Shown: piece by piece, positions 28,149-36,100 of the stretch
Layout of the letters: each line of letters begins with the position of its first letter
Numbering within the stretch: the first letter of the stretch is position 1
Assembly: GCF_002156385.1 (NCBI RefSeq)
Contig: NZ_MVJM01000002.1
Coordinates: forward strand, 466,921 to 530,920
From: Halalkalibacter urbisdiaboli
Lineage (GTDB): Bacteria; Bacillota; Bacilli; Bacillales; Bacillaceae_D
Length of the DNA: 64,000 nucleotides
Reading direction: 5' to 3'
Translations under genes and position numbers: made by a program
Notes under the pieces: model-generated
What the model was told of the DNA's origin: nothing
The model's database searches: none
The model's input: the letters and a program-made list of their open reading frames with translations, nothing else

Positions 28149-30572
28149 TTAGCCAACGACAATATTAACTAGCTTTCCTGGTACAGCTATTACTTTTCGA
28201 ACGGACTTATCCCCAATAGCTTCTTTCACTTTCTCATCCTGCATAGCTAGCTCCTCCATTTGTTCACGCGAGGCGTTAACAGGGATTACTAACTTAGATT
28301 TTACTTTACCATTAATTTGTGCAACGACCTCTATCTCATTTTCTACAAGCAAGCTTTCGTCATAGGTTGGCCATGCTTCGTACGCAATTGTCCCCTCATG
28401 CCCTAGTTTCTCCCATAGTTCTTCTGCTAAATGTGGGGCTATTGGAGCCAATAATTTAACGAAGCCTTCCATTAGATCACGTGGTAATGTTTCCTGCTTA
28501 TACGCTTCGTTAATGAAAACCATCATTTGTGAAATTCCTACATTAAAACGTAGGTTAGCATAATCATCGGTAATTTTCTTGACTGTTTGATGATAGACCC
28601 GAACAAATGGGTCCGAACCGTTTTCATTGCTAATCTTGTTATTTAATTGCTCAGTTGCTTCATCAATAAATAAGCGCCAAATCCGATCTAAAAAGCGTCG
28701 AGCCCCATCTAAACCATTTGTAGACCATGCTATCGAAGCATCAAGTGGTCCCATAAACATCTCATACAAACGAAGCGTATCGGCTCCGTGACTTTCAACA
28801 ATATCATCTGGGTTTACAACGTTCCCCTTAGATTTACTCATTTTTTCGTTATTTTCACCAAGGATCATACCTTGATTATAGAGTTTCTGGAATGGCTCTT
28901 TTGTTGGAACAATTCCTACATCATATAAAACTTTATGCCAGAAACGAGCATACAACAAGTGTAGCACAGCATGCTCAGCACCACCGATATAAATATCTAC
29001 CGGTAACCACTTTATAATTTTTTCAGGATCAGCTAGAGCATCACTATTTCTTGGATCAATGTATCGTAAATAATACCAACAGCTTCCTGCCCACTGTGGC
29101 ATTGTATTTGTTTCACGACGACCCTTCTTCCCTGTTTCCGGATCGACCACTTCGAGCCAGCTTTTTTCATTTGCAAGTGGTGATTCTCCCGTACCTGACG
29201 GACGAATTTCCTTCATTTTTGGAAGTTGTAGTGGTAACTCTGATTCAGGGACAGCTGACATCGTTCCGTCTTCCCAATGAATAATAGGAATTGGTTCTCC
29301 CCAATAACGTTGACGACTGAATAACCAGTCTCTTAACCGATATGTTACTTTTTTCTTGCCTAGTTGATTCGTTTCTAGCCAATCAATCATATTTCTAATT
29401 GCAGTTTCTTTATCTAAACCATTAAGGAAATCGGAGTTTACATGCTCACCATCACCTGTATATGCCTCTTCCTCAACATTTCCACCTGCAACAACTTCAC
29501 GAATTGGCAAATCAAACGTTTTCGCAAATTCATAATCGCGCTCATCGTGTGCAGGTACTGCCATGATCGCGCCTGTTCCATAGCTGACAAGCACATAATC
29601 TGCAATCCAAACAGGAATTTTTTCACCACTGACGGGATTTATAGCAAATGCTCCTGTAAACTCACCCGTTTTTTCTTTAGAAAGCTCGGTTCTTTCTAAA
29701 TCGCTTTTCGTTGCTACTTTCTTTTTATATGTTTCGATTCTTTCCTTTTGGTCTTCTGTTGTAATTTTATCAACAAGCTTATGCTCAGGAGCTAAAACCA
29801 TATACGTTGCGCCAAAAAGTGTATCAGGTCTAGTTGTAAAGACCTCTACTTTCTTACCAGCATGTCCATCAATTTCAAAGACAACCTCTGCTCCCTCTGA
29901 ACGTCCAATCCAGTTACGTTGCATGTCTTTAATGCTTTCTGGCCAATCAAGTTCTTCTAGATCCTCTAATAAACGATCCGCATAAGCCGTAATTTTTAAC
30001 ATCCATTGCTTCATCGGTCTCCGTTCGACCGGGTGACCACCGCGCTCACTTTTCCCATCAATGACTTCTTCATTTGCAAGGACTGTTCCAAGTGCAGGGC
30101 ACCAGTTCACAGCGACTTCGTCAATATAAGCGAGTCCTTTTTCATAAAGCTTCAAGAAAATCCATTGTGTCCATTTATAGTACTCAGGGTCTGTCGTATT
30201 AACTTCCCTGTCCCAGTCATAGGAAAACCCTAGTGACTTAATTTGGCGACGAAAGTTATCAATATTTTGCTTTGTAAACTCAGCTGGATCATTTCCAGTA
30301 TCAAGCGCATATTGCTCAGCAGGCAAACCAAACGCATCCCACCCCATTGGATGTAGGACGTTATAGCCTTGCATACGCTTCATTCTAGATAGTATATCCG
30401 TTGCTGTATAGCCTTCAGGGTGTCCTACATGTAACCCTGCTCCTGATGGATACGGAAACATATCCAATGCATAAAACTTAGGCTGGTTTTCTTCTTCCTT
30501 TGTTTTAAAGGTTTTGTTTTGTTCCCAATATTGTTGCCATTTCTTTTCAATCTTCTGGTGTGAAAACGACAT
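28149..30572 (-). CDS. leuS: Leucyl-tRNA synthetase
   Basis: An 807-residue class I synthetase. The HIGH motif appears as [11 protein letters not shown] (about residues 45-54) and the KMSKS loop as EKMSKSKGN (about 575). The CP1 editing domain lies between, with [15 protein letters not shown] at its end. A C-terminal anticodon-binding domain follows. It charges tRNA-Leu. It is read from a long leader containing a promoter, a Leu-type T-box and about 1.07 kb of tandem repeats, then GTAGGAGG just before the ATG. A strong terminator ends it. Confidence 0.97.
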
Positions 30573-30644: not shown

Positions 30645-31712
30645 TATCCCTACAGTCGGGGCCGGCGCTGCTTCGCTATCGCCTATAAAACCTTGCCTCC
30701 CTACGGTCGGGGCTGGCGCTGCTTCGCTATCGCCTATTAAAACCTTGCCTCCCTACGGTCGGGGCTGGCGCTGCTTCGCTAGCGCCTATTAAACCTTCCC
30801 TCCCTCCGGTCGGGGCCGGCGCTGCGTCGCTATCGCCTATCACACCTTGCCCCCCTCCTGACGGGGCCGGCGCTGCGTCGCTATCGCCTATCACACCTTG
30901 CCCCCCTCCTGACGGGGCCGGCGCTGCGTCGCTATCGCCTATCACACCTTGCCCCCCTCCTGACGGGGCCGGCGCTGCGTCGCTATCGCCTATCACACCT
31001 TGCCCCCCTCCTGACGGGGCCGGCGCTGCGTCGCTATCGCCTATCACACCTTGCCCCCCTCCTGACGGGGCCGGCGCTGCGTCGCTATCGCCTATCACAC
31101 CTTGCCCCCCTCCTGACGGGGCCGGCGCTGCGTCGCTATCGCCTATCACACCTTGCCCCCCTCCTGACGGGGCCGGCGCTGCGTCGCTATCGCCTATCAC
31201 ACCTTGCCCCCCTCCTGACGGGGCCGGCGCTGCGTCGCTATCGCCTATCACACCTTGCCCCCCTCCTGACGGGGCCGGCGCTGCGTCGCTATCGCCTATC
31301 ACACCTTGCCCCCCTCCTGACGGGGCCGGCGCTGCGTCGCTATCGCCTATCACACCTTGCCCCCCTCCTGACGGGGCCGGCGCTGCGTCGCTATCGCCTA
31401 TCACACCTTGCCCCCCTCCTGACGGGGCCGGCGCTGCGTCGCTATCGCCTATCACACCTTGCCCCCCTCCTGACGGGGCCGGCGCTGCTTCGCTATCGCC
31501 TATTAAAACCTTGCCTCCCTACGGTCGGGGCTGGCGCTGCTTCGCTATCGCCTACTATTAAAACCTTGCCTCCCTACGGTCGGGGCCGGTGCTGCTTCGC
31601 TATCGCCTATTAAACCTTGCCTCCCTACGGTCGGGGCCGGCGCTGCTTCGCTATCGCCTATTAAACCTTGCCTCCCTACGGTCGGGGCCGGCGCTGCTTC
31701 GCTATCGCCTAT
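30645..31712 (-). repeat. Minisatellite of about 21 units of 49-51 bp in the leuS leader
   Basis: Thirteen near-identical 51-bp units (the TGACGG landmark recurs every 51 bases from 30859 to 31471) are flanked on each side by four diverged units of about 49-55 bp. Read on the leuS strand each unit contains a GGCG-AGC-GAA-GC-CGCC-type hairpin and a CCCC/GGGG hairpin. The central units contain AGGAGG followed about 10 bases later by GTG. The frame is open through the central array (a repeated 17-residue IGDSDAAPAPSGGGQGV), but frame changes in the flanking units break it. It lies between the T-box terminator and leuS. Confidence 0.92.
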
Positions 31713-31720
31713 AAAAAAAA

Positions 31721-31975
31721 CTCCCATCCCTAACTGTTGTCAGGGACGAGAGTTGATTATACAAATCCCGCGGTACCACCCATTTTTAACGAGTCATTGA
31801 CTCATTCGCTCTTCACAAGTAACGGGCGTGACCCGTTGAGAGCTACTATAATTGTTCACTCTCAAGACTCAAAGGTGAGTTCGTGATGCCGTTCGACCGA
31901 CTCGCACCTACCGTCAGCTCTCTTAATACCCCAAGCATTACTACTAGTCCTTCTCAACGTCGCCATATCAACTTA
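31721..31975 (-). ncRNA. Leu T-box riboswitch of leuS
   Basis: On the minus strand the T-box sequence GGGTGGTACCGCGG lies at about 31768-31781. The terminator is CTCTCGTCCCTGA, loop, TAGGGATGGGAG and TTTTTTTT (31752-31713). Upstream is a structured Stem I with a candidate specifier CTC at 31879-31877 (in GAACTCACC), which is a leucine codon. Uncharged tRNA-Leu would stabilise the antiterminator and allow leuS transcription. The 5' limit is estimated from the promoter. Confidence 0.92.
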
Positions 31976-31980
31976 CTAGT

Positions 31981-32009
31981 ATTGTATGAATTGAGACGAG
32001 TGCTGTCAA
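31981..32009 (-). promoter_or_regulatory. Sigma-A promoter of leuS
   Basis: Minus strand TTGACA (32009-32004), a 17-base spacer, TACAAT (31986-31981): a near-consensus vegetative promoter placed just before the T-box leader. Confidence 0.8.
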
Positions 32010-35172: not shown

Positions 35173-35325
35173 TGTGTTGCCTCCCTTTGGTCGGGGCCGG
35201 CGTAGCAAGCTCCGCCTCTTTAAAAAAAACCTCCCTTTGGTCGGGGCCGGCGTAGCAAGCTCCGCCTCTTTAAAAAAAACCTCCCTTTGGTCGGGGCCGG
35301 CGTTGCAAGCTCCGCCTCTATCGTA
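35173..35325. repeat. Three tandem 50-bp units of a GC-rich hairpin repeat
   Basis: Three near-identical units, CCTCCCTTTGGTCGGGGCC plus GGCGTAGCAAGCTCCGCC and an A-run, between ytpA and ytpB. On the minus strand each unit contains the hairpin GGCGGAGC TTG CTACGCC and a CCC/GGG hairpin. The core GCCGGCCCCGACC--AGGGAGG is shared with the leuS-leader minisatellite, so both arrays belong to one repeat family. Confidence 0.85.
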
Positions 35326-36100
35326 ATATCATGTTTACAAAGCCGATGGCGTGTCGGAAGACTTCTTCTCTTTCTGGTTCATTAAATATTTCATGATAGA
35401 GTCTGTCCCATTCTTTGTAGTGTTTATTAGTCAATGCTAGGCTGTTAAACCAATCTCGTACTGCAAATTTATCTACAATATAATCTTCACCCGATTGCAG
35501 TACTAAAAGTGGGAGATCAGGAAATTTTTCAGGGTATCGGTGTGAAAGCCTCATTGCCTTTGTTAACTCCTGATACCACCGAGCGGATACCTTTGTTACT
35601 CTTAGTTCATCTCTTATATAAGCCTCACGGATCTGTTCGTTCCGTGTTGTTAGTTCAGGTTTTATCCCTGATTTCGCTGAAAAAGATGGTGCCACTATAT
35701 GAACAAGCTTCATCGCAAATTCTTTATTTTTCCCTGGGGGTTGAGTCAATCCTAAGCAAGGCGATGATAAAATAACACCTTCAATGTAGGCATAGCTTCT
35801 ATCCATTAATGTCCGGATCGCGACGAGTCCTCCCATGCTATGACCGAATAAAAAGATAGGTAATTTTTTTTTCCTTCCTTCTTCAATCCATCCCTCTACG
35901 GTATCAATATATTGATTAAACGACTGAATATGACCTCGCTTTCCACGTGTCTGTCCTTGTCCAGGCAAATCACCCATAATCACTTCGAGTCCATGTTGAT
36001 TCCATTTCTTTGCTAACCATTGATAACGACCATGGTGTTCCCCAGCTCCATGAACAATAATGATGACCCCACGTGGCTCTGCAACTTCCCATTTCCACAT
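35318..36100 (-). CDS. ytpA: YtpA-type lysophospholipase (alpha/beta hydrolase)
   Basis: A 260-residue serine hydrolase. Nucleophile elbow FLFGHSMGGLVA (about residues 83-94), oxyanion region IIVHGAGEHHGRY (about 13-25), with Asp in LQSGEDYIVD and His in RLYHEIFNEPE. B. subtilis YtpA is a phospholipase implicated in making the lysophospholipid antibiotic bacilysocin; ytpA and ytpB are neighbours there as well. Ribosome site GAGGAGGAAG precedes the ATG. The C-terminal codons touch the edge of the downstream repeat array. Confidence 0.85.
   Translation of the reverse strand: MWKWEVAEPRGVIIIVHGAGEHHGRYQWLAKKWNQHGLEVIMGDLPGQGQTRGKRGHIQSFNQYIDTVEGWIEEGRKKKLPIFLFGHSMGGLVAIRTLMDRSYAYIEGVILSSPCLGLTQPPGKNKEFAMKLVHIVAPSFSAKSGIKPELTTRNEQIREAYIRDELRVTKVSARWYQELTKAMRLSHRYPEKFPDLPLLVLQSGEDYIVDKFAVRDWFNSLALTNKHYKEWDRLYHEIFNEPEREEVFRHAIGFVNMILR

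Follow-up and report, generated by a model that had tools for sequence, protein, structure and literature searches.

Arrays of a dispersed two-hairpin repeat family directly behind intrinsic terminators and stop codons, including the leuS T-box attenuator of Halalkalibacter urbisdiaboli

Why should a leucyl-tRNA synthetase gene carry about a kilobase of tandem repeats between its T-box attenuator and its start codon? The question arises in Halalkalibacter urbisdiaboli (genome G000; assembly GCF_002156385.1) in a stretch of 64,000 nt of contig NZ_MVJM01000002.1 (positions 466,921 to 530,920), hereafter the window. The initial annotation had placed a ~1-kb array between the leuS T-box and the leuS ATG, and we find it there, between the leader matched by RF00230 and the ATG at 30572 (Table 1). 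TRF assigns the array (30657–31712) a period of 51, 20.6 copies and a 96% match. The unit listing agrees with the annotated composition of ~21 units, 13 of them near-identical and flanked by four diverged units on each side. Most units are 51 bp long (the longest is 55), units 5–17 are alike and 12 of them (units 6–17) are identical 51-mers, which supports the proposal that the array expanded from its middle. A chance origin was rejected, as a 27-nt unit core matched 21 times and not once in 100 shuffles.

Table 1. Features of the leuS locus and of the second array in the window (window coordinates).
Feature	Position	Strand	Details
Predicted sigma-A promoter, leuS leader	31981..32009	-	TTGACA-17-TACAAT, 11/12 consensus match
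T-box leader, RF00230	31739..31966	-	126.9 bits, E 9e-28; gathering score 93
T-box attenuator, terminator stem and T-run abutting the array	31713..31754	-	Stem 31754-31719
leuS tandem array, 21 two-hairpin units, last one truncated	30657..31712	-	TRF and unit listing
Diverged 5' units 1-4	31501..31709	-	Unit listing
Homogenised core, units 5-17	30838..31500	-	Unit listing
3' units 18-20 (diverged) and 21 (truncated); end approximate	30647..30837	-	Unit listing
leuS, leucyl-tRNA synthetase, 807 aa	28149..30572	-	ORF; PF13603 editing domain
Second array of this family, 2.8 copies of 50 bp	35180..35319	-	Begins at TAG stop of hydrolase ORF

The T-box terminator has eight T at its tail and ends at about 31713, directly against the array. 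Both hexamers of the predicted promoter recur in the leuS leader of the sister species Bacillus solitudinis (G025). The two strands of the H. urbisdiaboli leader hold four promoter-like sites, versus 1.3 expected in shuffles; weaker sites on the minus strand lie inside the T-box (9/12) and over the leuS RBS (9/12; 30604–30577). The latter is the sole candidate in the interval from the array to leuS, where our scan found no convincing promoter. Since no convincing internal promoter was found, we count the array as part of the read-through leuS mRNA, as had been annotated. Placed between the off-switch and the gene, the array would be silent under termination, and read-through on uncharged tRNA-Leu would give leuS a hairpin-rich 5' UTR of ~1 kb.

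The array at leuS belongs to a dispersed family of GC-rich hairpin repeats. With the outer leuS units as query, further arrays were found in the H. urbisdiaboli genome, and a second one lies in the window itself, ~3.5 kb from the first, at an alpha/beta hydrolase ORF (35318–36100; PF12146). A covariance model built from 17 units (R1) matched this genome at least 144 times at E ≤ 0.05 and at least 156 times at E ≤ 1, with 150 of the 491 first-look candidates scored. The 150 of the 156 matches that were listed fall at no fewer than 19 loci. The listed matches include 13 of the 21 leuS units, so the family counts are lower bounds. A leuS-specific device was rejected, as the same family occupies at least 19 loci that include ordinary terminators and stop codons. 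Elsewhere in the window (positions 1–235), a tandem repeat with a 48-bp period (4.9 copies, 87% match) is unlike the leuS unit in sequence and is possibly a coding repeat.

The family is concentrated in few genomes. R1 had 79–82 matches in B. solitudinis, 14 in G021, 7–8 in G017 and one in G013. At E ≤ 0.05 it matched 11 of 41 genomes of the bacterial family, several of them with one or two weak matches. An insensitive search of the order, in which 14 candidates were scored per genome, found 7 of 397 genomes with a match at E ≤ 1e-4. In a neighbouring genus the repeats occur sparsely. An exact-pattern scan of genome contigs, from which the window's own record was possibly excluded, returned B. 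solitudinis alone, and the same kind of scan for the unit found nothing in viral contigs. Unit loops are more locus-specific in H. urbisdiaboli than in B. solitudinis, where many units share the loop AACTCGTTG (loci L011, L128, L129, L143, L144, L147, L151 and L154–L157). We read the common loop as a sign either that the units spread recently in that species or that its loci homogenise one another. In G021 (L083, L094, L099, L102 and L106) and G013 (L115), a dispersed repeat of ~180 bp has one unit within the loop of its hairpin. A G013 copy of this longer repeat, located beside a Y1 transposase gene, is without just the unit, which suggests that, in another lineage, the unit is a module that a copy may have or lack.

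Each unit begins with an ATAG or AGAG tag, followed by a first hairpin (H1; GGCG–variable loop–CGCC or covariants), a second hairpin (H2; AGCC...GGCT or covariants) and a short T/A-rich spacer. The hairpins show compensatory change. Among 39 representative units, aligned by eye on the stem and supplemented mainly from B. solitudinis, G017 and G021, pair 2 of H1 is GC in 25, TA in 9, CG in 4 and GT in 1. Pair 6 takes four standard pair types across the 39 units; pair 5 is standard in 16 of them only. Pair 2 of H2 is GC in 31, TA in 3 and unpaired in 2 of 36 units (three leuS and hydrolase-locus units were excluded from this count). The pairing of H1 (0.86 observed, versus a maximum of 0.71) was reached by none of 2000 permutations of the 3' arm, for which 35 distinct H1 sequences were used. 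A first alignment of 17 units (RNAalifold and pair counts) had shown no covariation because the stem bases are invariant there. Folded singly, none of five units was more than 1.5 sd more stable than its shuffles; the structural support is therefore the covariation across loci.

The paired structure bears on what the array encodes. A GTG open frame of 242 aa crosses the leuS array (window 30727–31455, minus strand), and units carry SD-like GGAGG or GGGAGG motifs. The frame (31455–30727), together with a period of 51 bp or 17 codons, would fit a repetitive protein with the unit IGDSDAAPAPSGGGQGV. However, sister arrays have periods of 50, 53, 54, 55, 56, 57, 60, 61, 64, 67, 73 and 75, and conservation tracks the hairpins. 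Because 8 of the 13 distinct array periods (range 50–75) are not multiples of 3, we rejected a protein-coding repeat, a reading that we regard as almost certainly wrong, and read the frame as a coincidence of the 51-bp period. A CRISPR array was also rejected, since the units run head to tail with no unique spacers.

The leuS copy number comes from one assembly, and an inflated or misplaced repeat would be an assembly artefact. In the same assembly, the hslU–codY and lysA arrays (L118 and L121) have N10 gaps with duplicated flanks; the assembly broke at these repeat arrays, and copy numbers there are unreliable. The leuS array, however, contains no N run in the sequence as read, its outer units diverge in a graded fashion and the same array anatomy recurs in two other genomes. 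An artefact at leuS is thus very unlikely.

For the position of the arrays, we examined 41 array starts (19 in H. urbisdiaboli, 20 in B. solitudinis and two in a third species, G017), located by eye. The units of G021 (14, five copies inspected) and G013 (one) were excluded as they lie inside the ~180-bp repeat. A same-strand intrinsic terminator, whose T-run the detector admits when it begins no more than 18 nt before the array, is directly upstream of 28 of the 41 starts (12/19 in H. urbisdiaboli, 15/20 in B. solitudinis and 1/2 in G017). With the same detector, the control figures in the window are 36 of 1459 TAG sites, 9 of 420 ATAG sites and 63 of 2950 random positions. Eleven of the remaining 13 starts coincide with the stop codon of an open frame (71 or more codons) or are no more than 5 nt from it, against controls of 187 in 4000 random positions and 113 in 1516 TAG sites. 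In seven of these eleven (six in H. urbisdiaboli, and speE in B. solitudinis), the TAG of the unit is the stop codon itself. Two starts (L026 and L152) are at neither a terminator nor a stop codon. Among the ordinary terminators that host arrays are those of rpmE, fur and a tRNA gene in H. urbisdiaboli; B. solitudinis adds those of the SRP RNA and rnpB. Strongly used terminators may be preferred sites. The names metG, alaS, lysA, ribD, hslU, hemC, dtd, speE, fur and rpmE are from NCBIfam, several on fragments below the whole-protein cut-off, and those of leuS and the hydrolase have a Pfam basis. The names relA, codY, hemX and DUF2626-like are our reading of the translations. The putative relA product has an ACT domain and the putative hemX product a cytochrome c assembly domain.

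The initial annotation had called for a comparison of leuS leaders in related genomes. The first 150 aa of leuS had matches in 41 of 41 genomes of the family. Among the 30 leuS leaders compared, of 41 found, the array is in H. urbisdiaboli only and is missing from the other 29. The distance from the antiterminator motif to the ATG is 1208 nt in H. urbisdiaboli versus 84–257 nt in the other 28 motif-bearing leaders. The B. solitudinis leader, at 151 nt, has no array. Behind the T-run of that leader (L050) there is a 19-nt H1-like sequence, AATAGTCGCAACAGCGAGC, about half a local-type unit, which may be the remnant of a lost array. At metG, also with 30 of 41 leaders compared, arrays occur in H. 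urbisdiaboli and B. solitudinis only, behind the same terminator and with different units. The H. urbisdiaboli metG array has 63.6 copies (TRF) and stretches the distance from antiterminator motif to start codon to 3587 nt.

Flank segments of seven arrays were probed in B. solitudinis and six were found, all of them empty sites: hslU–codY, relA–dtd, hemX–hemC, alaS, rpmE and a response-regulator-like gene. There, hslU ends in TAG and relA and hemX in TAA, and the T-runs at alaS, rpmE and the regulator come without a TAG. If the empty sites resemble the state before insertion, a prior TAG is unnecessary. Both species have arrays at four sites (metG, speE, fur and the DUF2626-like gene) with units of different sequence, which reflects either ancient insertion with homogenisation or repeated insertion. 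At these shared sites there is no conservation of unit sequence, unit length or copy number.

For a quarter of the terminator-class starts across the three species (7 of 28), the terminator is an attenuator. In H. urbisdiaboli, arrays lie directly behind the T-boxes of leuS (RF00230, Table 1), metG (94.5 bits) and alaS (99 bits) and the lysine riboswitch of lysA (100.2 bits). In B. solitudinis, they lie directly behind the FMN riboswitch of ribD (103.9 bits) and the metG T-box, which is under the Rfam gathering score and was assigned by motif and gene only. In G017, an array is directly behind a lysine riboswitch (112.4 bits). A SAM riboswitch in the window (RF00162; 40553–40662, minus strand; 72.5 bits) has no unit-core match nearby. 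Attenuators of the T-box and riboswitch type are intrinsic terminators, and would be colonised for this reason.

The initial annotation had proposed that the copy number of the array may tune leuS expression; tuning specific to leuS is not supported. In a wider form of the idea, the attenuator arrays could be functional parts of the leaders of leuS, metG, alaS, lysA and ribD, where a hairpin UTR of variable copy number would tune translation, stability or secondary termination. The structural constraint on the hairpins, the occupation of the metG leader in both species of the genus and the presence of an array on 3 of the 21 T-box matches of H. urbisdiaboli (17 of the 21 above the cut-off) are consistent with such a role. 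So is the excess of attenuators, as 7 of 28 has a binomial probability of 2e-4 against a background of 2 in 44. This background is an assumption taken from the window's two Rfam attenuators and 44 terminator-like sites; of the two attenuators, the detector registered the leuS T-box alone, and the denominator of the enrichment is crude. When leuS is set aside, T-boxes account for 2 of 11 terminator-class starts in H. urbisdiaboli. Furthermore, the family also sits behind ordinary terminators and stop codons, the leuS and alaS leaders of B. solitudinis and 28 of 30 metG leaders have no array, and unit sequence, length and number vary where a site is shared. Taken together, we consider a leader function unlikely.

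The reading that we favour, and consider likely, is that of a dispersed repeat of the REP/STAR type whose units were seeded at stop codons and at the T-tracts of terminators and expanded locally, with the repeated leuS leader as a by-product. Some mobile or recombination activity would target units to the site directly 3' of the T-run of an intrinsic terminator or to a stop codon, in sense with the gene upstream. Seeded units would then multiply in place by slippage or unequal crossing-over to give tandem arrays, which would be homogenised from the middle as they expand. Arrays could also grow by insertion of one unit behind another, a possible route because many spacers end T/A-rich followed by ATAG and resemble a terminator tail. 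Seeding and local expansion most likely suffice to account for the findings, and the array would then have no dedicated role in the control of leuS.

In a bolder version, which we put forward tentatively, the hairpin element is mobile, or copied through RNA, and seeks out the 3' end of intrinsic terminators. Riboswitch and T-box attenuators would be colonised again and again as a consequence, and the state of a metabolic switch would determine whether the array is transcribed (3.5 kb of it at metG). If that were true, the apparent excess behind attenuators would come either from heavy targeting of those terminators or from a function that the arrays have acquired in the control of aminoacyl-tRNA synthetases. 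A purely selective filter, through which only units in harmless places survive, could produce the same distribution, above all for the stop-codon class. Under the favoured reading of seeding and local expansion, the family would offer a simple system for studying how termination sites become insertion targets. The arrays also show a route by which essential genes under attenuator control gain kilobase-long, possibly copy-variable 5' leaders. In addition, the array, the possible remnant and the empty leader are natural alleles available for testing the effect of the leader on T-box or riboswitch output.

In the open-licence PMC articles searched, seen in part, we recognised nothing on this arrangement, an absence that carries little weight. 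As far as these searches show, the target pattern of a hairpin family associated with terminators and stop codons is new in the literature searched and its general kind is known. The closest relatives in kind are the GTAG REPs, which, in the part of PMC3733652 consulted, are short hairpins with a 4-nt end tag, many dispersed copies near ORF 3' ends and some tandem clusters; the TAG of their tag is often the stop codon of the ORF. The arrays described here share the REP-type palindrome and dispersed copies close to ORF 3' ends. Unlike GTAG REPs, they mostly have an ATAG or AGAG tag, two hairpins and a unit of 50–75 bp, have their start at a terminator T-run at 28 of the 41 loci and form long head-to-tail arrays, as at metG. 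The leuS units have ATAG in 19 of 20 cases and GTAG in one, and AGAG occurs in several arrays.

These likenesses raise the possibility that the units are GTAG-REP-like non-autonomous transposons once moved by a Y1 (HUH) transposase that H. urbisdiaboli has since lost. The ATAG-tagged hairpin, its site 3' of ORFs and the use of TAG as the stop codon match the description of GTAG REPs in the consulted part of PMC3733652. Y1 genes are present in 26 of the 41 genomes of the family, and B. solitudinis has a 191-aa REP-transposase-like ORF (73.6 bits; cut-off 80). One of the 14 G021 units is next to a Y1 gene, although it belongs to the longer repeat, and the G013 copy that lacks just the unit also neighbours such a gene. 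A search of the H. urbisdiaboli genome for the Y1 transposase domain (PF01797) returned no match, however, against at least 144–156 model matches in the same genome. The two PF01797 places in B. solitudinis are away from the listed model matches, the tag is ATAG in 19 of the 20 matched leuS units and PMC3733652, in the part consulted, makes no terminator link for GTAG REPs. We rejected strict membership in the GTAG REPs on the ATAG tag and the lack of PF01797 in H. urbisdiaboli, and consider the strict REP reading improbable.

The STAR elements of Staphylococcus aureus, to judge from the part of PMC3532100 consulted, resemble our arrays as direct repeats rich in GC that occupy many intergenic loci in a low-GC member of the Bacillota, with locus-specific spacers and variable copy number. 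The main text of that article does not contain the word 'terminator' and so describes no such link. A 12-nt approximation of the 14-bp STAR motif T(G/A/T)TGTTG(G/T)GGCCC(C/A), searched with up to one mismatch, had one match in the window, outside the arrays, with 2.1 expected. STAR membership was rejected because the motif is missing from the arrays.

The leuS leader upstream of the array is that of a T-box, with a score above gathering (126.9 versus 93 bits) and a terminator before the array. It is unlike the other leuS leaders in the distance from motif to ATG given above. A parallel for the target is found in the bacterial class C, or group IIC, introns; according to the part of PMC3522654 consulted, they have their insertion sites downstream of Rho-independent terminators. 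As in our arrays, the target is 3' of an intrinsic terminator and the insert is normally untranscribed. This feature is present in 28 of the 41 array starts; most of the others are at stop codons, which it does not cover. In contrast to the introns, no ribozyme or reverse transcriptase was seen in the arrays, and an Rfam search of the window and 31 loci for group II introns found no match at gathering score. Elsewhere, the H. urbisdiaboli genome contains a group II intron together with a reverse transcriptase (L209). Among the papers considered, seen in part, a hairpin family with a preference for terminators would be a second case beside the group IIC introns.
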